A DNA stretch of 64,000 nt. Source: Halosegnis marinus. Lineage in GTDB: Archaea > Halobacteriota > Halobacteria > Halobacteriales > Haloarculaceae. This document shows, piece after piece, positions 5,996-19,530 of the stretch; position 1 is the stretch's first letter; every line of letters starts with the position of its first letter. The stretch covers positions 1 to 64,000 of the forward strand of contig NZ_CP119802.1 of the NCBI RefSeq assembly GCF_029338355.1. Reading direction: 5' to 3'. Below the pieces are notes generated by a model. The model had not been told where the DNA came from. It saw nothing but the letters and a program-made list of their open reading frames with translations, and made no database searches. The position numbers were made by a program, and so were the translations under genes.

Positions 5996-7000
5996 TCAGT
6001 CGTCGCTCGGCTCGCCGCCGTCCGCGGCGACGGTTTCGCCCTCCTCCTGGCGCTGTGCGAGCTCCTTCTCCCAGCGGACGCGGAGCACGTTCCCGTACAT
6101 CGACAGCACGATGCCGACGAACAGCACGAAGACGCCGATGTTGATGCCGATGGTCATCAGCAGCGAGGTCGGTCCCCCGCCGATGACGAGTTCGCGCGGC
6201 ACCGGATACCCCTCGTCGAAGATACTCCCGACGAGGAACGACACGATGCCGATGACGGTCAACACCCCCATCACGGTCGTGACCCAGTGCCACGACGGCG
6301 ACAGTTCGAGCTTCTCGATGCCCCACTCGCCGTTGCCGGAGTGGTCCTCCGGAATCATGCTCCGGGGGATGAACGCCTTCGGCTCCAGCGGGTAGAACGC
6401 GGGGTGGAAGCCGTGCTCGAAGATGTGGAACATTATCCCCATCACCATGATGACGCCGAGCAGGCCGTGGAAGACGACGAACGCCATCGCGGCCGTCCGG
6501 GTGGCGTACACCTCCATCACGCCGGTCTTCGACCAGATGAGCAGCCCCGAGATGGACAGGAGCGTCAGCTCGACGCTGAAGATGTAGACGACGCCCTTCC
6601 CGATGTAGGTGAGCAGCGGGACCTCGTCGGCCTTCCCGCCCGCGAACTGCAGGGCGTTCGGGTGGCGCTCGTCGGCGCGCCCCAGCATGAACTTCACGTC
6701 CTGTATCATCGCCTCGATGTCCTCCCGGGTGAGGAGTATCTCCCGGAAGTTCGAGCGGCCGGTCGGGGTGATGACCATGAGCACGATCCAGAAGACGATG
6801 AGCGCGATGAGGCCCGCGCCGGCCACGCGGTGGACGGCGGCGACGCCCGCGGTGCCGCCCATCAGCTCGGCGAGCCACCACAGCTCGTCGTTGAACATGA
6901 TGCCGTAGCCGGTGAAGAAGAGGATGAACACGTCCAGCCCCAGCAGGGCGTGGAACGTCGTCGTCATCCGGGTGAACTTCCCGTGGTCGAGGCTCGTCAT
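5996..7000 (-). CDS. Formate dehydrogenase cytochrome b (gamma) subunit
   Basis: Membrane anchor and haem b subunit passing electrons from the iron-sulfur subunit to the quinone pool. 334 residues with about six hydrophobic helices (roughly 13-35, 58-80, 143-165, 177-205, 238-262, 283-310). Candidate haem ligands are the histidines in TFHALLGLD, AAVHRVAG, VVFHGLLG and FHIFEHGFHP. The last also resembles a quinone-site region. It is the last gene of a four-gene minus-strand operon and overlaps the preceding gene by 4 bases. The C-terminus is a charged cytoplasmic tail. Confidence 0.82.
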   Translation of the reverse strand: MTSLDHGKFTRMTTTFHALLGLDVFILFFTGYGIMFNDELWWLAELMGGTAGVAAVHRVAGAGLIALIVFWIVLMVITPTGRSNFREILLTREDIEAMIQDVKFMLGRADERHPNALQFAGGKADEVPLLTYIGKGVVYIFSVELTLLSISGLLIWSKTGVMEVYATRTAAMAFVVFHGLLGVIMVMGIMFHIFEHGFHPAFYPLEPKAFIPRSMIPEDHSGNGEWGIEKLELSPSWHWVTTVMGVLTVIGIVSFLVGSIFDEGYPVPRELVIGGGPTSLLMTIGINIGVFVLFVGIVLSMYGNVLRVRWEKELAQRQEEGETVAADGGEPSDD

Positions 7001-7386
7001 CGGTCCTCACCTCCCTCGACCTCGCCGCCGTCGGCGACCACGTCGCCGGCGTCGGCCTGCTCGCCGGGCTGGCGCATCCGCGCCGCGATGCGGCGGAACG
7101 CCGACCAGTGGAGGAACACCATGAACAGGATGAACACGCCCATCAGGACGTCGGCCGCGTGAATGAGCGCGATGAGGAAGTCCAGTTCGGCGATGGTGTT
7201 GCCCTCGACCCAGTCCGTGCCGACGCCGCCGCCCGCGACGGTCGGGCCGACCCGGAACAGCGTCTCGTAGAACGGCCCGAAGCCGCTCGCCCACCAGATG
7301 CTCCCCAGCGCCGCGGCGACGCCGACGACGGCGGAGACGAGGATGGACAGGCCGCCGTAGCTACGGGTCTCGGGGAGTTCGCTCAC
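6997..7386 (-). CDS. Small membrane subunit of the formate dehydrogenase operon
   Basis: 129 residues with two predicted membrane helices (about 12-32 and 70-93). The second begins LIHAADVLMGVFILF and contains a His that could ligate haem. It has a polar acidic tail. The gene overlaps both neighbours by 4 bases (7383-7386 and 6997-7000), so it is tightly coupled to the iron-sulfur and cytochrome subunits. I infer that it completes the membrane arm. It is not a standard FdnI-type subunit and I cannot assign a named family. Confidence 0.62.
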   Translation of the reverse strand: MSELPETRSYGGLSILVSAVVGVAAALGSIWWASGFGPFYETLFRVGPTVAGGGVGTDWVEGNTIAELDFLIALIHAADVLMGVFILFMVFLHWSAFRRIAARMRQPGEQADAGDVVADGGEVEGGEDR

Positions 7387-8054
7387 GAGAACTCACCGGC
7401 CTCCTCGCCGAAGATTATCTCCATCGCCTGGTCGTTGAAGAACGGCGCGGAGCCGCGCTTCTCCATCTCGTCGGCGATCTCGGCCGCGTCGCCGACGAGG
7501 ATAGCGTCGGTCGCGCACTCCTCGGCGCAGGCCGGCCCCTTGCCGACGTGCTGGCGCTCCTCGCACATCGTACACTTGTCCATCGTGCCGCCGGTGCCGA
7601 ACACCTGTGCCGAGCCGTCGTTCGAGTCGGGGAACTGCGGCGCCCCGAACGGACACGCGGAGAGGCAGTACTGACAGCCGATACAGAGGTCGTCGCGGAC
7701 CTCGACGAAGCCGTTCTCCTTCTTGATCAGCGAGTCCACCGGACACACCGAGACGCACGGCGCGTTCTCGCAGTGGTAACACTGCATCGGAATGGACGTC
7801 TCGCCCGGGCTCGCACCCTCCGCGAGCGCCTGTGAGCTCCGGTGGTTGAACCCCTCGTCCGCCTCCTGTCCCTCCAGCATCGTCGAGATGCTGATGCGCT
7901 GTTCCTGCGGGCCGACGTCCCACGTCCGCTTGCACGCCACGACACAGCCGCCGCAGTCGATGCACGCTTCCACGTCGGGGAAGATACGCGCTCCCTCCCC
8001 GACGTTCATGACGCCCTGGCCCAGGACCTCTCTGTTTTGTTCGTTTGTAGACAT
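7383..8054 (-). CDS. fdhB: Formate dehydrogenase iron-sulfur (beta) subunit
   Basis: Electron-transfer subunit with four [4Fe-4S] sites, 223 residues. The cysteine groups are C31/34/37/41 (CIDCGGCVVAC), C92/95/100/104, C124/127/130/134 (CIGCQYCLSAC) and C161/164/176/180. This is the arrangement of the FdnH/HybA/DmsB family. There is no signal peptide, so it is probably carried across the membrane with the Tat-exported catalytic subunit. It has no C-terminal anchor helix, and membrane attachment would come from the next two genes. Its ATG shares one base with the fdhA stop. Confidence 0.87.
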   Translation of the reverse strand: MSTNEQNREVLGQGVMNVGEGARIFPDVEACIDCGGCVVACKRTWDVGPQEQRISISTMLEGQEADEGFNHRSSQALAEGASPGETSIPMQCYHCENAPCVSVCPVDSLIKKENGFVEVRDDLCIGCQYCLSACPFGAPQFPDSNDGSAQVFGTGGTMDKCTMCEERQHVGKGPACAEECATDAILVGDAAEIADEMEKRGSAPFFNDQAMEIIFGEEAGEFS

Positions 8055-11000
8055 TATTGCACCGTCTCGGAGTCACGGACATCGAAGTCCTTCTGGAGAC
8101 CGATGCCGTCCCGGTCCTGCGGGAAGTCGATGACCTCCATGTTCAGTTCCTCCATGCGCTGTTCCGTGGCCGGCTCCAGCCGGACCATCGATACCTTCGT
8201 CTCCTGCATCTGCGTCTCCACGTCGTAGCCGCGCGACGTGATGGCGTTCACGGAGTCGCCGATGGCGTACGGGACCGTCCCCTCGGGGTAGCGGTCCTCC
8301 AGGCTCTGTCCCTTGAAGACGCCGCCCCAGTGGAAGGGGAGGAACGTCTCGCTGTCGTTCGGGCGGTCCGTCACCCGCGCCTTCACGAGGATGGACCCGC
8401 GGTCCGTCGACGACACGATGAGCATGTCGCCGCCGTCCACGTCGAGGTCCTCGGCCGTCGCCGGCGTTATCTCCGCGTACATGTGCGGCTGGAGGTCGGC
8501 GGTCATCTCGTTCGACCGCGTCTCCGAGCCGCCGCCCTGGTGTTCCACCTGCCGGCCGGTGGTCATGATGGTGTTGAGCCCCTGGTCGGCCACCTTCTGC
8601 ATCGCGTCCTCCTGGGTGACCGAGTTGTTCTGGTCGAACCGGTAGAAGTTCTTCTGCTGGCCGTTCGCGGGCCACTGCTCCACCAGGTCCGGCCGCGGGC
8701 TCTCGATGGGTTCGCGGTGGACGGGGACGGTGTCGATGAAGTTCCACACCGTCGCCCGCGCCCGGCCGCGCCCCGTCGGCGCGTCGGGCTGTTTGTAGTC
8801 GTACTGTTCCCACCACTCCAGCGACTCCTCGACGTTCATGCCGGGCTGGACCACGTGCTCCTCCATCCCCCGGCTGACGAGTTCCTGCGCCAGCGTGTAC
8901 ACGGACTCGTTCGGGTCGAGCGCGTACTGGTAGGGGAGCGAGAGCGCGTCCGGGTTGGTGAGGTCCTCGGGGAGGACCGTCTTCCAGCCGGGGTACTCCG
9001 GGACGCCGTTGATGACGCCCTGGTAGTCGCTCTCCCAGTTCTCCGGGACGAGTTCGTCGCGCAGGAGGTTCGTCCCCTCCTCGACGCCCTTCGCGTCGAC
9101 GGTGTCCTGCATCGGGTACGGCTTGTCCGTGTTCATGCCGTCCCAGTCGTCCGGGGTCGGGGCCTGCGTGCCCCAGCGTGCGCGGAAGTCCTGCCCGCCG
9201 TTGCGCGGGTCCATGTCGTCGTTCCAGATGATGGGCGTGCCGGGATGGCCCTCGCCCCAGCAGGGCCACGGCAGCCCCCAGAACTCGTCGGACACCGGCA
9301 AGCCCTGTTCCTCGGCCTTCAGCGTCTCCGTCGAGAACGCGTAGTCGTAGTCGAGGTGCTGTTGGAGCCGTTCGGGGCTCTGGATGTAGCCGATGGTCCG
9401 CAGGCCGATGTTTATCTCGCGGATGACCTCCTCGTAGGTGGACTTCCCGTTGTGGATGTTCGGGCCGGAGCCCCAGTCGAAGTGGGCGCCGAGGCCGTCC
9501 CAGTAGTCATACTCGCCGAGTTTCGCGGCGAGTTCCTGGATGATCCGCAGGTCGGGCCGGGAGTTGTGCGACGGCGGCCGCACCGGCTCCGACCACTGGA
9601 TGGAGCGGTGCGAGTTCGTCAGCGAGCGGTAGTGCTCGTACTGGCTCGACGCCGGCAGGATGATGACGCCGTCGTCGCGGTCCGGCAGCACGGACGCGAC
9701 GGACGGGAACACGTCCACGACGACCAGCAGGTCGAGGTTCTGCATCGCCTGCTGCATCTTCCCCATCTCGGAGATGGAGTTCGCGGAGTGGCCCCAGAAG
9801 AACGCCGCACGGAGGTCGTTCTCCTGGTACAGCGGCGTCTCGTTGAGCCGCTCGGACTGCGGGAGCGCTCCTCGAACCAGCGGGCGACCGTGAGCCCGTT
9901 CTGGAACATGAGCGAGCGGTCCATCGCGCTCGCGTCGGCGGCCCCGCCCTGTTCCGTCCAGACGTCCTGGGGCATCGTCGAGAAGCGGTCGTACAGCGTG
10001 TCGAAGTCCGTCGACCCGCTCGTGAACGGGCTCTGGTTCCACACGTCGGCCCAGTACTCCCACGAGCCGCGCGAGCCGACGCCGTAGTAGCCGGGCAGGA
10101 TGTGGCTCGCGACCGCGAGGTCGGTCGCCCCCTGGACGTTGGCGTGGCCGCGCATGACCTGCAGGCCGCCGCCCGAGCGCGCCGCGGAGCCGCTACCGAG
10201 CGACAGCGCCGCGTACGAGCGGATGTTCTGCGTCCCGTTGTTGTGCTGGGTGCCGCCCATCGCCCACTCGATCTGGACGCTGGGCTTGGCCTCGATTATC
10301 ATGTCCCCGAGCTGCTGGATCTCCTCGACGCTCATCCAGGTGATGTCGGCGACGGTATCGAGGTCGTAGCGGTCCAGCTCGGAGGCGAGGTCCTCCCACG
10401 CGAAGACGCGCTCGTCGAGCATCTCGCGGTCGAGCTCGTCCTGCTCGCGCAGGTAGCGGATGAGCCCCATCATGAGGGCCACGTCCGTCCCCGGGCGCAT
10501 GCGGAAGAACTCGTCCGCGTGGGCCGCGGTCTTGGTGAACCGCGGGTCCACGCAGGCGATCTTCCCGCCGCGCTTCTGGCCCTCCAGGATGTGCTGCATC
10601 GCGATGGGGTGGGCTTCGGCCGGGTTCTGCCCGATGATGACGTTGAGGTCGAAGTTCCGGTAGTCGTTGATGGTGTTCGTCATCGCGCCGTAACCCCACG
10701 TGTTGGCGAGGCCGGCGACCGTCGTGGAGTGGCAGATACGCGCCTGGTGGTCCACGTTGTTGGTGCCGAACATCGAGGCGAACTTCCGGAACGCGTACGC
10801 CTCCTCGTTGGAGTGGTGGGCGCTGCCGAGCCACATCGTCGCGTCGGGGCCGTCCTCCTCGACGATGGTGTTCAGCTCCGAGGCGATGTGGTCGTACGCC
10901 TCGTTCCACGAGATCTTCCGCCACTCCCCGTCCACCTTCTGGAGCGGGTGCTTCAGCCGGCGTTCGGAGTGTTCGGACGAGAAGATGCCCGCCCCCTTCG

Positions 11001-11277
11001 AGCAGAGCGAGCCGTTGTTTATCGGGTTCTCGTGCCACGGCTCCTGGCCGACGAACGCGTTGCCCTCGCGTTCGCCGCGGAAGCCGCAGCCGACCGCACA
11101 GTAGTTACAGACTGTCTTCGTCAGTTCCCCTTCGTCGTCGGTGCCGTCGGTCTCGCCGTCGCTCTGGGCCAGCGCGTGGCCTGCCGTCCCCCCGCCGAGG
11201 GCCAGCCCGCCCGCCAGTGCGCTCGCCTTCATGAACGAACGTCGGTCGAGATCGAGTGAGACCGGTTCCGCGCTCAT
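8054..11277 (-). CDS. fdhA: Formate dehydrogenase catalytic subunit, Tat-exported (frameshifted)
   Basis: Molybdopterin (Mo or W) oxidoreductase of about 1074 residues after repair, the length of FdnG-type enzymes. The N-terminal Tat signal is DRRSFMK (residues 11-17) plus a hydrophobic Ala/Gly stretch. The [4Fe-4S] ligands are C57/C60/C64/C92 with the conserved Lys in CSKG. The active site is ARICHSTTVAGL, with Cys182-His183 where bacterial enzymes often use selenocysteine. The C-terminal molydopterin-dinucleotide domain is present. Start chosen at 11277, just before the Tat motif. The frame breaks near 9866-9870: plus-strand GGGAGCGCTCC, one base short; WFEE should run into ALPQSERLNETPLYQ. 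Export plus a cytochrome b subunit indicates a periplasm-facing respiratory enzyme. Substrate is inferred from family. Confidence 0.87.
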
Positions 11278-11298
11278 TGTGTTTCCATGGTTTCCCTG

Positions 11299-11339
11299 AC
11301 CGTTCTTCGTAGACGGTTCTAGTTGGTGTGATACCAACT
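11299..11339 (-). promoter_or_regulatory. Two inverted repeats in the fdhA upstream leader
   Basis: AGTTGGT (11321-11327) and ACCAACT (11333-11339) form a perfect 7-bp inverted repeat with a 5-base centre. ACCGT (11299-11303) and ACGGT (11313-11317) form a second 5-bp repeat. Both lie 22-62 bases before the fdhA ATG. They could be operator half-sites or, if transcription starts in the AT-rich block beyond, hairpins in the mRNA leader. Confidence 0.45.
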
Positions 11340-11360
11340 CACAAAAAGTTGTACCCCATC

Positions 11361-11463: not shown

Positions 11464-13576
11464 ATGAACATCGGCGCGTTTGCGTGCTCCTGTGGCGGGT
11501 CGTGCGACATCGACCTCGAACGGGCGCGGGACGGGGTGCGCGACGTGGACGTCGTCGCCAGTTCGAGCCTCCTGTGTCAGGACGGCCTCGACGCGATGGA
11601 ACACGTCATCGACCAGTACGACCTCGACCAGGTGGTCGCGACCGCCACGGACGACGGCTGTAAGAGCCGTATCCGCGAGCGGGCGACCGAGGCGGGGCTC
11701 CACCCGGACGCCACCGCGTTCGTCGACCACCGGGAGGGGAGCGCGTGGGTCCACGACCGCGACGAGGCGACGGACAAGACGGCCCGTGTCATCAACGCGA
11801 CGGCCGCGGGCGTCCGTGAGGCGAGCGGGGAGCGGCGCGTCTCCGGGAGGCCGGCGACCGCGTCGCCGTCGTCGGCGACCCCGAGACGGCCGCCGCGCTC
11901 GCGGACACCGCCGACGTGACGCTCGTCGCGAACGGCCGGGAGTTCGCCGGCGCGGACCTCGACCTCGACGACGTGACGCTCCGCCGGGGCGGCGTCGCCT
12001 CCGTCGAGGGCGAGTACGGCGAGTTCACGCTCTCGCTCCGGTCGCGCGTCACCGCCGACTGCATCTCGTGTATGGAGTGCGTCGAGCGCGGCCCCGACGA
12101 CATGGTCACCGCCCGCCCGGTGGACATCCACCCCGAGGCCCCGCGCGGCGAATGGACCGACTGCTGTCCCACCGACGCCATCGACATGGACGGCGAGACG
12201 ACGACGCTCGACGCCGACCAGGTCGTGTGGCCCGGCGCGGACCGTCGCGAACGCGGCGGCCGGATTGGCTTCTACACCACCTCGGACGCCGGAACCGTCG
12301 CGGCCGTCGAGTCGCTGCTCGGCGGCGTCGAGAAGCCGCGGTTCATCGACCTGGAGATGGACGTGTGCGCGTCGGGCGCGTCGAGCCAGCAGGGGTGTAC
12401 GGAGTGTTCGGACGCGTGCCCGCACGGCGCGGTCGCGCGGCCGGCCGTGGACGAGGTGGAGATAGACCCCGTGGCGTGTCAGAACTGCGGCGCGTGTACG
12501 AGCGCCTGCCCGACCGGCGCGGTGTCGCTCCGCGAGCCCTCGAACCGACGGCTCGCCCGCGAGGTCGAGGCGCTCGTGGACGAGGACACCGACGACGGCG
12601 GTTCGTGGTTCGGCCGCGGCGACGACGGCATCGAGACCCCCGTGGTCGCCTTCACCTGCTCCGAGCGGGCGCGCGACCGCCTCCGCGAGTACGGCCGCGC
12701 CGCGGCCGCGGGTGCCGAGGGCGGCTACCCGCCGATACTCCCGGTGTCGGTCAACTGCACGGACACGGTCGGCTCCGCGCACGTCCTCCACGCGCTCGCG
12801 GCGGGCGCGGAGGGGTCGCCATCGTCGGCTGCGGCGAGTCGTGTCTCCACTCCGGGCCGGACCCGAAGGCCGCGCTCGTCGAGCGGCTGAACCGCGCGAC
12901 CCGCGACCTCGGCCTCGGCGACCGGACGACGTTCCTCGCGCCCGGTCCCGACCCCGCGCGCTTCCGCGAGGAGCTGGAGACGTTCGTCGGCGGCCTCGAC
13001 CCCTCGCCGGTGCCGCGCGGCGAGCACGAGGCCACGGGCCGTATCGAGGCCGAGCGGCCGAACCCCGACTTCGACACCCACGGTTGGGCGCTCGAGTCGG
13101 TGCGGGCCATCGTCCAACACGCCGAGCCCGAGCGCGACGTGATACGCGGGCTGACGGCGTTCGGCCGGATGGAGGTGAGCGAGGCCTGTAACCTCACGCC
13201 GACCTGTTCGAACCTCTGTCCGACCGACGCCATCCGCCGGACGACGGACGCGGACCTGGAGTTCAACCACGAGCAGTGCGTCAACTGCGGCCTCTGCGAG
13301 CAGGGGTGTCCCGAAACGGCCATCACGATGAAGGACGGCCTCGACCTCTCGCTGCTGCCCGAGCGCAACGACGGCGAGGCGTGGCACACGGTCCACGACG
13401 GCGAGATGCAGGAGTGCGTCCGCTGCGGCAAGGCGTTCGCCTCGGCGGGCACCATCGAGAAGGTGCGCGGCGAGGTGGGCGACCGCGTGACCGGCATCGC
13501 GCCCGAGGCCGACCACGACATCTTCGAGTACTGCGGCGACTGTCGCACTACCCTGCTGTTCGGGGGTGGGAACTGA
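11464..13576 (+). CDS. HdrA/MvhD-like multi-cluster iron-sulfur protein (two frameshifts)
   Basis: About 704 residues after repair. The first ~120 residues match the N-terminal domain of heterodisulfide reductase HdrA (GAFACSCGGSCD, then a Cys-containing turn and SAWVHDRDEATDKT). The flavin-binding Rossmann domain expected next is reduced to a short VAVVGDPETAAALA segment without GxGxxG. Then come a CISCMEC group, a two-cluster ferredoxin region (CTECSDACPHG and CQNCGACTSACPTG), an MvhD-like hydrogenase iron-sulfur domain (VAFTCSERARD, SVNCTDTVGS, VGCGESCLHSGPDP), another ferredoxin region (CSNLCPTD, CVNCGLCEQGCPE) and a final CxxC/CxxC pair. One-base losses at about 11845 (TCTCCGGGAGG) and 12815 (GGAGGGGTCG) break the frame. 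Probably a cytoplasmic electron carrier for the adjacent formate dehydrogenase; its partner is not known. Confidence 0.78.
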
Positions 13577-14292
13577 TGGACGAACTCGCCGTGTACGACG
13601 CCCGACTCACGCTCGTGGACTTCCCCATCGAGGCGTTCCAGGACGTGCCCGACGAGGCGTTCGTCGAGCGCCTGCTCGGCGGGGAACTCGCCTTCCCCGA
13701 CGACCCCGTGAACGACCGGCTCGACACCGGCTTCGAGTACCTCCGGGAGTTCGTCGCGGAGAACGAGGGGCGCGACCCCGCGACGGTGGCAGAGGAACTC
13801 GCCACCGAGTACAGCCGGCTGTTCACCGCGCCGCGGCCGCCCGTCCTCCCGCACGAGACCCACTACCGCGAGGACACGGAGTTCATCGGGCAGGGGCTGG
13901 CGGACGTGGAGGCCTCGTACTCGGCCGCGGGCTGGAAGCCCTCCGAGGAGTTCCCCGAGGAGAACGACTTCGTCGCCGTCGAACTCGCGTTCATCCGCCA
14001 ACTCATCGACCGGCAGCGCGCCGGCCAGGAGGAGACGTTCGGCTTCGAGCGCGTCTTCCTCGACGAGCACCTGCTCGTCTGGTACGAGGACCTGCTGGAG
14101 GCGCTCGTCGCGGAGACGGACGACCCCTTCTACCTCGCCGCGGCCCACGTCTTCGCGGGGTTCGTGGAGTTCGAGGACGAACTGGTCGCACAGATGGTCG
14201 CGGACCGCCAGCGGCCCGGGCGACGACGAGGAAGGCCGCGGCGACCCCGACACCCGCCAGCGCGAGGACGATATCGACGCTCCGGCGGGTGA
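13576..14292 (+). CDS. TorD/DmsD-family chaperone for molybdoenzyme maturation (C-terminus unresolved)
   Basis: All-helical, acidic protein. Its pattern (YSRLFTAPRPPVLPHETHY, a long helical middle, VFLDEHLLVWYEDLLEAL and AAHVFAGFVEFE) fits the TorD family. These chaperones bind Tat signal peptides and hold molybdoenzymes for cofactor insertion. Here the obvious client is the formate dehydrogenase. The ATG overlaps the preceding stop (TGATG), so the two are coupled. Convincing homology ends about residue 214 (ADRQRPG, near 14217). Beyond it the frame reads arginine-rich non-native sequence to a stop at 14292. Bases seem to be missing around CGGCCCGGGCGA, and the true stop is probably close to there. 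Confidence 0.72.
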   Translation: MDELAVYDARLTLVDFPIEAFQDVPDEAFVERLLGGELAFPDDPVNDRLDTGFEYLREFVAENEGRDPATVAEELATEYSRLFTAPRPPVLPHETHYREDTEFIGQGLADVEASYSAAGWKPSEEFPEENDFVAVELAFIRQLIDRQRAGQEETFGFERVFLDEHLLVWYEDLLEALVAETDDPFYLAAAHVFAGFVEFEDELVAQMVADRQRPGRRRGRPRRPRHPPARGRYRRSGG

Positions 14293-14687: not shown

Positions 14688-14815
14688 CCGAACACCTCCC
14701 GGCGGTACACGTCGTAACAGACCGCGAGCACCGCGAGGGTCGCCAGCCCCAGTACGAGCCACGACTCCCCCAGCGGCAGGGGGAGGTTCGGCCCGGCGTG
14801 CAGCGCGAGAGTCAC
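14684..14815 (-). CDS. 43-residue single-helix membrane protein (first of a set)
   Basis: GTG at 14815, TGA at 14684-14686, reading VTLALHAGPNLPLP, then one transmembrane helix (about residues 18-34), then YDVYRREVFG. Its stop overlaps the GTG of the next gene (GTGA), which is the main reason to believe it. The size and topology recall accessory subunits of membrane oxidoreductases. Function not recognised. Confidence 0.55.
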   Translation of the reverse strand: MTLALHAGPNLPLPLGESWLVLGLATLAVLAVCYDVYRREVFG

Positions 14816-14908
14816 ACCTTGGTACTAGTGAACGTTCCGCTAAACAGTTACCCTTCCTGTCAGCGTCCGTTGAAGAACGCTTTTCGCCGGTGCTTCCCAT
14901 GTGCCGGT

Positions 14909-16111
14909 ATGGCAAGCCGGAGACGGCTCCTCTCGCGCGTCGCGGCGGCCGTCGGCATCTCCAGTCTCGCGGGCTGTACGGGCTCCGAGCCCTCGCTCGA
15001 CCTGCCGCCGAACCCGCGGGCCGACTCGCTTCCGGCGCTCCAACACGACTGGGTCGGGGGCATGCGCACCGACGAACACGGCAACCCCCTGTTACCCCGC
15101 TTTCACCGCGTCCTCATGCTGGACGCGACGGCCCCGATAGACGACGCGCTCCGCGAGCGCGTCGAGCGCGCCTGCCGCGCGCTGGAGGCGGCCTACGACT
15201 GGTCGAGCGCGGACCTCCTGCACACGTGGGCGTGGGGGACGGGCTACTTCGAGAAGCAGGGGTCGCTCGGGCGCGCGCCGATCCGTCGGCCGCGCGTGCT
15301 GTCGCGGACGGACGACCCCGACCTCCGGTCGTTCGACGCGGCGCTCGTCCTCGCCAGCGACACCGAGTCGCACCTGACGGCGACGGAGGCCGCGCTGTTC
15401 GGCGACCGCGACACGCTCGGTGGCGCCCCCGTCGAGGCGCCGCTGGGCGACCTGTTCGACCGGCGGCGACGGGTCACCGGCTTCATGGGCGAGGGACTGC
15501 CCGCCGCCCACGCGGACGCGGAGGGCATCCCCGAGGGCGCCCCGCTCGACGGCGCGCCGGGGTTCATGGGCTTCCGCTCCGGGCGGGTCCGCACCCAGGC
15601 GAGTCTCGACCGCGTGACGAAGTCCGGCGGCCGGTGGGACGGCGGCACGACCATGCACCTCTCGCACCTCACGTTCTCGCTCGACGGCTGGTACGCGATG
15701 GACATGCCCGACCGGGTCGCGCGGATGTTCTCGCCGGACGTGACGCCCGAGGAGGCGGAGACCTACGACACGGACGTGCCGTTCGCGGACGCCGTACGCG
15801 AACACGCCCGGGACTACGGCGTCGTCGGCCACACGGAGAAGATGGCGCGTGCCCGCGAGAACGGCGAGCCGATCCTGTTGCGCCGCGACTTCAACACCGT
15901 CGACGGCGGCCGTGCCGGCCTCCACTTCCTCTCGTACCAGCGGTCGCTCGCGGACTTCGAGACGGCGCGCGACGCGATGAACGGCTGGTGGCTGCGCGAC
16001 GACCACCCGTCGATAACGGACCGGCAGAACAACGGGCTGTTGAACTTCGTCACCGTTCGGTCGCGCGCGAACTTCTACGTGCCGCCGCGCGCCCGGCGGG
16101 CGACGCCCTGA
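14909..16111 (+). CDS. Tat-exported lipoprotein resembling DyP-type peroxidases
   Basis: 400 residues. The N-terminus has a twin-arginine signal (ASRRRLLSR) and a lipobox (LAGC, Cys22), so it is probably lipid-anchored outside the cell. The C-terminal half follows the dye-decolourising peroxidase pattern: GHTEKMARARENGEPILLRR (a candidate proximal haem His in GHTEK), then DGGRAGLHFLSYQRSLADFE. The distal motif GFxDG appears as GFMGFRSG, so the usual catalytic Asp is not where expected. Export by Tat is consistent with a cofactor-loaded protein. It could be a haem-binding or redox protein rather than a true peroxidase. The neighbouring locus is respiratory. Confidence 0.62.
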   Translation: MASRRRLLSRVAAAVGISSLAGCTGSEPSLDLPPNPRADSLPALQHDWVGGMRTDEHGNPLLPRFHRVLMLDATAPIDDALRERVERACRALEAAYDWSSADLLHTWAWGTGYFEKQGSLGRAPIRRPRVLSRTDDPDLRSFDAALVLASDTESHLTATEAALFGDRDTLGGAPVEAPLGDLFDRRRRVTGFMGEGLPAAHADAEGIPEGAPLDGAPGFMGFRSGRVRTQASLDRVTKSGGRWDGGTTMHLSHLTFSLDGWYAMDMPDRVARMFSPDVTPEEAETYDTDVPFADAVREHARDYGVVGHTEKMARARENGEPILLRRDFNTVDGGRAGLHFLSYQRSLADFETARDAMNGWWLRDDHPSITDRQNNGLLNFVTVRSRANFYVPPRARRATP

Positions 16112-17123: not shown

Positions 17124-17837
17124 TCACGCCAGCGCCCAGCCGGCCTTCTCCGCGGCCTCCTCAAGCGGCCGGAACTCCCACCCCTCGGGCTCCATCCCCG
17201 CCTCGTCTGCGAGTCCCACGAGCACCATCCGCTCGGCGTAGAACATCGAGGAGGGGCCGATCTCCGCCAGCCGCTCCGTCGGCCGGGTGCCCGACCCGTT
17301 GAAGAAGTCGAGGTCGATGACGTGCTCGCGCTGGAACTTGTTGAGGACGTGCGTCGGGACGTCCCCGACGATGCCCACCCAGTCGGACCACCGCGCGGCG
17401 TCCGTCGTCGCGGCCGCGGGGTCGGCGAGCGCCTTCGCCGCCCGGTAGGTGAACGCGAGCGTCATCTCGTCGGCGTCGCCGCCGTGCGGCCCGCTCGTGG
17501 CGTCGGCGCCCGCGCCGACCGGGCCCGAGACGGTTCCCTCGTCGCCGCCCTCCGGCACGCCCGGCGTCGCGTCGCCGGCACCGCCGGCGGCGGACGACTC
17601 CGCCCCCGCGCCCGCGCCGCCCCCCTCCTTCGGGATGCCGACCGGCTTCCCGTCCGTGTCGCGGGGCACCCGCGGCGTCGCGTCGCCGATGTCCGCGCCC
17701 GTGAGGCCCGCCTCGCCGTCCTCGGGTTCCTCGTCCGGGTCGCCGTCCCCCTTCCAGAGCCAGTCGCCGGGGTTGGCCTCCGGCTCCTCGTCGTCGTCCT
17801 GTACGTCGATGTCGTCGAGGTCGATGCTGTCGGTCAT
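17124..17837 (-). CDS. Two-part hypothetical protein coupled to the AOR homologue
   Basis: 237 residues. The first ~130 are acidic, Gly/Pro/Ala-rich and probably disordered, with repeated DATPxVP-like phrases. Residues from about 140 form a compact domain (MTLAFTYRAAKALADP, TARWSDWVGIVGDVPTHVLNKFQREH, MVLVGLADEAG). The ATG at 17837 overlaps the stop of the AOR-like gene (ATGA), so the two are translationally coupled and their products may interact. I do not recognise the domain. Confidence 0.65.
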   Translation of the reverse strand: MTDSIDLDDIDVQDDDEEPEANPGDWLWKGDGDPDEEPEDGEAGLTGADIGDATPRVPRDTDGKPVGIPKEGGGAGAGAESSAAGGAGDATPGVPEGGDEGTVSGPVGAGADATSGPHGGDADEMTLAFTYRAAKALADPAAATTDAARWSDWVGIVGDVPTHVLNKFQREHVIDLDFFNGSGTRPTERLAEIGPSSMFYAERMVLVGLADEAGMEPEGWEFRPLEEAAEKAGWALA

Positions 17838-19530
17838 GGTCGCAGGTGGTCGAGGTCCAGCCGTTCGAGCGTCGCGGCCGTCGGGACGCCCTCGTCGTCC
17901 CAGCCGCGCGCGTCGTAGTACGCGTCGAGCAGCGCCTCGAAGTCCGTGTCGAGGCTGTCGGGGTCGATCGGCGCGGGCAGGGTGTCGTCGGCCCGTGTGA
18001 ACCCCTCGCGGACGTTGAACAGCCGCACGAGGTTCCAGACGCGCTCGCCGGCCTCGGCCAGCCCCTCGTGGGGCGCGCCGACGGCGTCGAGCCACTCCGC
18101 GCCGTCGTCCGCCAGCGTCTCGCCCGTGAAGTCGTCGGCGACGAGGCTCCACCGCACCGCGCGGGTGTCCTGTGCGTCGATGACGGCGCTCGCCGCCTCC
18201 GCGGGGGTGAAGGGCCCCTCGAAGGGCTCGCGCTCGACGGGCCGCGCGCGCCGGTGACAGCCGCCCCGGTCGGAGGTGGCGTACGCGAGCGCCATCGAGG
18301 CCGCGCCGCGGGGGTCGTAGGCCGGCAGTTCCATCCCCTTCACGGTCGGGACGAGCCCCTCGCCCCCGAGCCGTTCCGCGGCGTCGGCCACCCCGTCGGC
18401 GAGCGCGTCGCCCAGGTCGCCGACGCGGGCCGCGATGTCCGCGAGCAGCGCGCGCGCGCCGTCCGGGTCGCCGAAGGCGTACCCGTCCTCGATGACGCCC
18501 TCCTCGCTCGCGCGGGCGGCCCACGCCACGGCGTTGCCCGCGGAGATGAGGTCGATGCCGAGGCGGTTGCACACCTCGCCGAGTTCCGCGACCGCGTCGA
18601 AGTCGTCGATGGCGAGGCCCGCGCCGAGCGTCATCGCCGTCGCGCCGCGCGGGACGGTGTCGCCCGCGTCGGTCCGCACGCGGAAGCCGCCCGCGACGGC
18701 GTCGTCCGCTCGCTCGCGGCCGTGCGAGGCGGCGCGCGCGGCCTCGATACCCACGTCGTCGGCGCCGGCGAAGCCCCGCTCCGTCCAGCCGCGCGAGGCG
18801 AGCACGCCCGCCTCGTCGGCGAAGTCCACGGTTTCGAGCGTCTCGCTCGTCGCGAGCCACCGGCCCGTCGCGTCCTCGGCGTAGCGCTCCGCGTAGGACT
18901 CGCGCAGGTCGGCGAACCCCTCAGGCGGGTCGCCGCGCGCGACGACCGCCTTCAGCCGCTTGGCGCCCATCACGGTGCCCGCGCCGCCCCGACCCGCGTG
19001 GTGGTCGGCGTTCGGCCCGGAGGCGATGGTAGCGTACGCGACCCCGGCCTCGCCGGCGGGGCCGATACACGCGACTGCCCCCTCGTGGGCCGTGCAGGTC
19101 TCGGCGGCGTCCGCGCCCCACGTCGTCGCCGGCTCGATGCGCGCGTCGCCGTCCGCGACCACGAGGCGGACGGGTTCGTCCGCCACCCCGGTCACGACGA
19201 GCAGGAGGTGGTCGTCGAGCGCGCCCGCGAGCGCCCCGGGGAAGTCGCCGCCCGCGTACGAGTCGAGGAACGCGCCCGTCAGGGGCGACTTCGTCACCGC
19301 GGCGTAGCGCGACTCCCCCGGGAGGAGTCGGAGAGCGGCCCGAGCGCGAAGCACAGCACGTTCTCCGGGCCGAGCGGGTCCGCCCCTGCGGGCAGTTCCT
19401 CGTGGAGGTAGCGCGCGCCGAGGCCCTTCCCGCCGATGTAGCGCCGGCGCCACCGCTCGGGGACCCGCTCGCTCGTCACCGACCCCTCGGAGAGGTCCAC
19501 CCGCAACACGCGGTCCGGCGGCGTCGTCAT
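17834..19530 (-). CDS. Aldehyde:ferredoxin oxidoreductase homologue lacking the iron-sulfur ligands (frameshifted)
   Basis: About 565 residues after repair. It has AOR-family landmarks: VLRVDLSEGSV and YIGGKGLGARYL in the N-terminal pterin domain, then YAAVTKSPLTGAFLDSY, HHAGRGGAGTVMGAKRLKAVV, LGAGLAIDDFDAVAELGEVCNRLGIDLISAGNAVAWA and a SDRGGCHRRARP C-terminal segment. Where tungsten AORs have a CxxCxxxC group before this helical domain, the text reads ERADDAVAGGFRVRTDAG, without cysteine. The later fourth Cys is also not evident (RWSLVADDFTGE). A [4Fe-4S] centre therefore seems impossible. The frame breaks at about 19315 (CGCGACTCCCCCGGG), one base short. Start ATG 19530. Substrate unknown. 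Confidence 0.8.

Follow-up and report, generated by a model that had tools for sequence, protein, structure and literature searches.

The stretch of Halosegnis marinus DNA analysed here (the window) covers the initial 64 kb of contig C1, and it carries on its minus strand a gene of the aldehyde ferredoxin oxidoreductase (AOR) family whose product is free of iron-sulfur cluster ligands. The gene occupies 17834..19530, from a start ATG at 19530-19528 to a stop codon at 17836-17834, and these limits were already correct in a preliminary description of the locus. Its product matches Pfam PF02730 and PF01314 (AFOR_N and AFOR_C) above cut-off, and AFOR domains were all that the Pfam scan returned.

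A one-base frameshift near 19329 interrupts the reading frame in the raw window. The opening 54,270 bases turn up a second time at the far end of the contig, the two copies being 99.83% identical (2 mismatches and 90 gap positions), as expected for the untrimmed overlap of an unclosed circular contig that contains long-read indels. The frameshift is an assembly error, since the far-end copy carries the C that is missing at 19329..19329. That copy also has one G fewer at 18310, such that the two copies of the gene have their breaks at different places, and combined they yield an open frame of 565 codons. Many other frameshifts in window 1-54270 are likely to be sequencing errors; with some 90 indel differences between the copies, any finding of a broken gene in this region needs to be read against the second copy.

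The stop codon of the AOR-family gene overlaps, by ATGA, a DUF7124 protein gene (17124..17837, minus strand; PF23439) that is a conserved downstream neighbor. Haloarchaea have a near-universal DUF7124 copy, and a divergent second copy is the one attached to the cluster-free AOR gene. About 6.5 kb beyond the AOR-family gene lies a formate dehydrogenase cluster, all on the minus strand. The alpha subunit (FdhA; 8054..11340, 5' limit approximate) has the Cys-His active-site pair and matches PF01568, PF00384 and TIGR01591, in each case partially because indels in the window disrupt its frame; in the far-end copy the frame is open for about 1095 amino acids. The iron-sulfur beta subunit (7383..8054) has NF038355 (FDH3_beta) as its best NCBIfam match, below cut-off, and a cytochrome b561-type membrane subunit (5996..7000; PF01292) completes the cluster. 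Nearby, on the plus strand, is a TorD/NarJ-type molybdoenzyme chaperone (13510..14292, 5' limit approximate; PF02613 and NF003442), and a DUF7405 protein is encoded at 14798-16111, between the formate dehydrogenase cluster and the AOR-family gene. Adjoining YqeC and MobA-like genes are found at G000:C1:2582798-2584097, which on the circular contig is approximately 9 kb ahead of the first window base. Although YqeC carries an annotation as a selenium-cofactor protein, most genomes with the YqeC/MobA-like pair are without selD.

Cluster ligands and active-site residues

An iron-sulfur cluster is present in 99% of AOR/WOR family sequences (PMC10413684), and Class I, the simplest class of the family, is defined by one cluster (PMC13328260). 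When the window protein is aligned to the AOR of Pyrococcus furiosus (Pf), the four ligands Cys288, Cys291, Cys295 and Cys494 are replaced by Asp, Val, Phe and Asp, with DDAVAGGF (18683..18706, minus strand; coordinates computed from the frame) at the place of the CxxCxxxC motif (Pf C288-C295). The preliminary description had claimed that this motif and the fourth cysteine were missing and that five isolated cysteines were all the protein contained; both claims are borne out, and the alignment with AORs that it called for places none of the cysteines as a cluster ligand. Neither CxxCxxxC nor an equivalent of Cys494 is found in any member of the protein's clade (described below) that covers these positions, and the [4Fe-4S] ligands that mark Class I WorL are thus absent from both. 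A sequence error hiding the cysteines, which would have undercut the claim, is excluded because 19329 is the sole window error in the gene and lies far from the ligand positions, and all orthologues agree in lacking the motif. A substitute metal site at the place of the old cluster was also considered and rejected: the Cys288 and Cys291 positions are variable, and there is therefore no conserved four-ligand set. Two cysteines, equivalent to Pf C337 and C447 (C321 and C425 of A1), are conserved in the clade; cluster-bearing AORs have both as well, but do not use them as ligands. The same genome encodes a normal cluster-bearing AOR paralogue, with CHSCPVAC.

The changes extend into the active site. 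In published accounts of residue roles, the catalytic second shell of AOR is formed by Thr243, Glu313, Tyr427 and His448, residues 93 and 183 hold the Mg with their main chain, and the pterins are contacted by the equivalents of Arg76, Gly95, Arg182, Asp343, Asp489 and Cys494 (PMC10413684; transferred here to Pf numbering). In the window protein PRGA (18641..18652, minus strand) replaces PEYE of Pf 310-313, converting Glu311 to Arg, Tyr312 to Gly and catalytic Glu313 to Ala, and WSLVAD (18134..18151, minus strand) replaces the second pterin motif, DxxGLC of Pf 489-494, converting pterin-binding Asp489 to Trp and the fourth cluster cysteine, Cys494, to Asp. Clade-wide, Glu313 is Ala, Gly or Ser, Tyr312 and Asp489 are likewise lost in every member, Arg182 is changed to His, and the new residues R311, W489 and D494 are common to all. 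Like P. furiosus AOR and the Class I WORs, the clade keeps Arg76, Gly95 and Asp343 of the pterin contacts and Thr243, His448 and Tyr427 (Phe in a few members) of the second shell, leaving the latter quartet incomplete throughout. About half of the published pterin, Mg and second-shell residues are retained, and judged by these residues AOR-type catalysis is therefore not expected, while binding of a cofactor is possible; the loss of Asp489 and Arg182 could also mean that pterin is not bound. There is good support for the conclusion that both the cluster and AOR-type catalysis have been lost.

The fold, on the other hand, is predicted to be intact. AlphaFold2 modeling of an 86%-identical orthologue from 84 sequences reached a pLDDT of 96.5 (a model from 15 sequences was poor, at pLDDT 70), and Foldseek matched the predicted structure to formaldehyde ferredoxin oxidoreductase (1b25) with a TM of 0.93 and to P. 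furiosus AOR (1aor) with a TM of 0.91; AORs are also the best solved relatives of the window protein. By homology the protein thus belongs to the AOR/WOR superfamily, but it is not classed as an AOR enzyme, because the cluster ligands and the second-shell quartet were both tested for and neither set is present.

DMSO reductases that have no cluster pass electrons directly from the metal, and a W/Mo oxidoreductase that delivers electrons to some other acceptor in the same manner would be compatible with the AOR fold and with the part of the pterin pocket that is kept. The concurrent loss of Glu313, Tyr312 and Asp489 in every member argues against such an enzyme, as does the want of any identified dedicated acceptor gene beside the AOR-family gene, and we consider it very unlikely. 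Of the two outcomes foreseen in the preliminary description, a different electron acceptor is for the same reason (loss of the catalytic Glu, Tyr312 and the pterin-binding Asp) weakened, and non-redox chemistry fits better.

A single clade under purifying selection

More than 40 intact haloarchaeal orthologues, 48-86% identical and spread across many haloarchaeal families, were gathered from searches of relatives and of named genomes. They form one clade, set apart with an SH-aLRT support of 100 in a 68-sequence tree, such that a clade sharing the loss, which the preliminary description had proposed to look for, does exist and has a single origin. Since all members share the losses and the new residues while the relatives surrounding the clade keep the cluster, the loss of the ligands is a conserved change on one lineage and not decay. 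Site conservation, counted over 63 sequences among which a few genomes appear twice, showed 21 clade-conserved sites that are rare in cluster-bearing AORs, and 57 sites conserved in both groups. Pairwise dN/dS of the gene against two same-genus orthologues is about 0.17, indicative of purifying selection. A decaying pseudogene or a sequencing artefact would account for the frameshift in the raw window, but that break is a contig-end error, and widespread intact orthologues carry identical replacements under purifying selection; with the second copy these rule out decay, and the probability of either explanation is negligible.

The sister group of the clade comprises sequences from Halorubrum halodurans (L081), Haloferax marinum (L082) and a member of the Bipolaricaulota (L092). 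These nearest relatives share with the clade a Tyr at 93 and His-His at 182-183, and their Asp489 is already Phe or Tyr; unlike the clade, they keep all four cysteines, Glu311 and Glu313. This combination suggests stepwise change, in which pocket residues were altered earlier and the cluster and Glu313 were lost later. The record name of L092 (GSL) suggests the Great Salt Lake, and gene transfer between salt-dwelling groups is therefore possible. Departures from the usual AOR active site are known also in the BamB and YdhV branches, where a Cys coordinates the metal; the usual second-shell residues are missing from BamB (PMC12096430). BamB and YdhV are nevertheless cluster-bearing redox proteins, whereas the clade has no cluster ligand at all.

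Linkage to formate dehydrogenase and cofactor genes

The clade further differs from P. furiosus AOR and the Class I WORs in the company its genes keep. Within about 8 kb of 46 clade loci, counted by specific queries and Pfam, YqeC occurs at 22, DUF7124 at 21, MobA at 17, an FdhA of the 1100-aa type at 14 and one of the 711-aa type at 12; none of these is found at the same distance from 20 loci of cluster-bearing AOR paralogues in the related genomes. MobA, YqeC or FdhA lies near 38 of the 46 clade loci compared to 0/20 paralogue loci (Fisher p 8e-11, a value that is optimistic because the loci are related). The neighboring FdhA proteins were recognized by TIGR01591, with the 711-aa type above and the 1100-aa type below cut-off, together with the Cys-His active-site pair, and the 711-aa type also by its solved relatives. 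These surroundings point away from aldehyde metabolism.

Presence and absence across genomes follow a similar pattern. The clade protein is present in 19 of 39 related genomes, where it is accompanied by YqeC in all 19 (6/20 of the others) and by a MobA-like protein in 18 (7/20 of the others). The two linked formate dehydrogenase types, as delimited by subtype cut-offs set after the data were seen, are present in 17/19 clade genomes (the exceptions are G016 and G024) and in 0/20 others. MoaC is nearly universal, and basic pterin synthesis is therefore not the distinguishing factor. In the genus to which the window belongs, the gene, a formate dehydrogenase and the MobA-like gene go together: three genomes have them all and three lack them all. 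Mapped on an RNA-polymerase tree, the gene shows a patchy distribution with 10 changes, and independent pairs point in the same direction, with no counter-example for YqeC or formate dehydrogenase and very few for MobA; only five such pairs fall on branches with good support, which is not enough to reach p<0.05. A general link to selenium through YqeC was rejected, as selD scored above cut-off in 4/39 genomes and MobA-linked YqeC occurs without it.

Co-occurrence with particular formate dehydrogenase types, and a position next to FdhA in several genomes, might also be explained by a subunit or regulator, i.e., a pseudo-enzyme that handles no cofactor and whose binding to FdhA or the membrane complex is structural. 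We regard this as unlikely, in that many genomes have the gene beside MobA or YqeC instead of FdhA, and a purely structural protein would have no need of the conserved pocket of T243, Y427, H448 and D343. Another alternative is a non-redox enzyme whose cleft still holds a metal-pterin or other ligand and that catalyses, say, a hydration or lyase step linked to formate metabolism. Conservation of His448, Tyr427 and Thr243, and the new conserved Arg, Trp and Asp at former cofactor and cluster positions, are in keeping with such an enzyme, yet its neighbors, cofactor genes and formate dehydrogenase, point to no substrate, and we judge it a still less probable explanation. The preliminary description had not noticed the association with formate dehydrogenase, MobA and YqeC, which speaks for cofactor handling rather more than for non-redox catalysis on an aldehyde.

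A possible role in cofactor handling

FdhD, a sulfurtransferase, is the usual maturation factor of formate dehydrogenase. It was found in none of the 39 relatives and in none of 194 genomes sampled from across the haloarchaeal class, by a search that was positive in eight control genomes, three of them archaeal. Its absence from halobacteria, and the matter of what replaces it, have been posed as an open question in a review (PMC10609526). The clade protein resembles FdhD in a possible role only, the hand-over of cofactor to formate dehydrogenase; it is unrelated to FdhD in sequence and fold, and the Pfam scan found no FdhD-NarQ domain (PF02634) in the window protein. FdhD typically has a sulfur-transfer cysteine loop, whereas the 21 clade-specific conserved sites include no cysteine to suggest sulfur transfer, although the conserved cysteine loop is missing in some known FdhDs too (PMC10609526). 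Six genomes have FdhA-like alpha subunits with neither the clade protein nor FdhD, and the clade protein is therefore not a requirement of every such subunit.

The reading we favor, with a probability of roughly 45%, is that the clade protein is a non-redox protein that handles pterin cofactor in the maturation of formate dehydrogenase. The W/Mo pterin cofactor, or one pterin half, would be bound in the old active-site cleft, and the protein would retain, shield or pass on the cofactor while bis-MGD is being assembled for formate dehydrogenases, with MobA and YqeC as putative partners. Cofactor binding, the partner proteins and the direction of transfer are inferred from the residues and gene associations described above. 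The protein might also take over some of the work of the absent FdhD. In its fullest form, in which an AOR-family enzyme has been turned into a cluster-free pterin-cofactor chaperone that does the job of FdhD together with MobA and YqeC, the proposal is doubtful. To our knowledge, no protein of the AOR fold serves in cofactor delivery without being a catalyst, and a search of papers available without subscription found none on a cluster-free AOR clade or on a haloarchaeal AOR near formate dehydrogenase.

A whole conserved clade that has neither the cluster nor the catalytic Glu means that the AOR fold has been put to another use. The clade is a concrete candidate for a part in the insertion and sulfuration of the formate dehydrogenase cofactor in haloarchaea, the question raised in PMC10609526.
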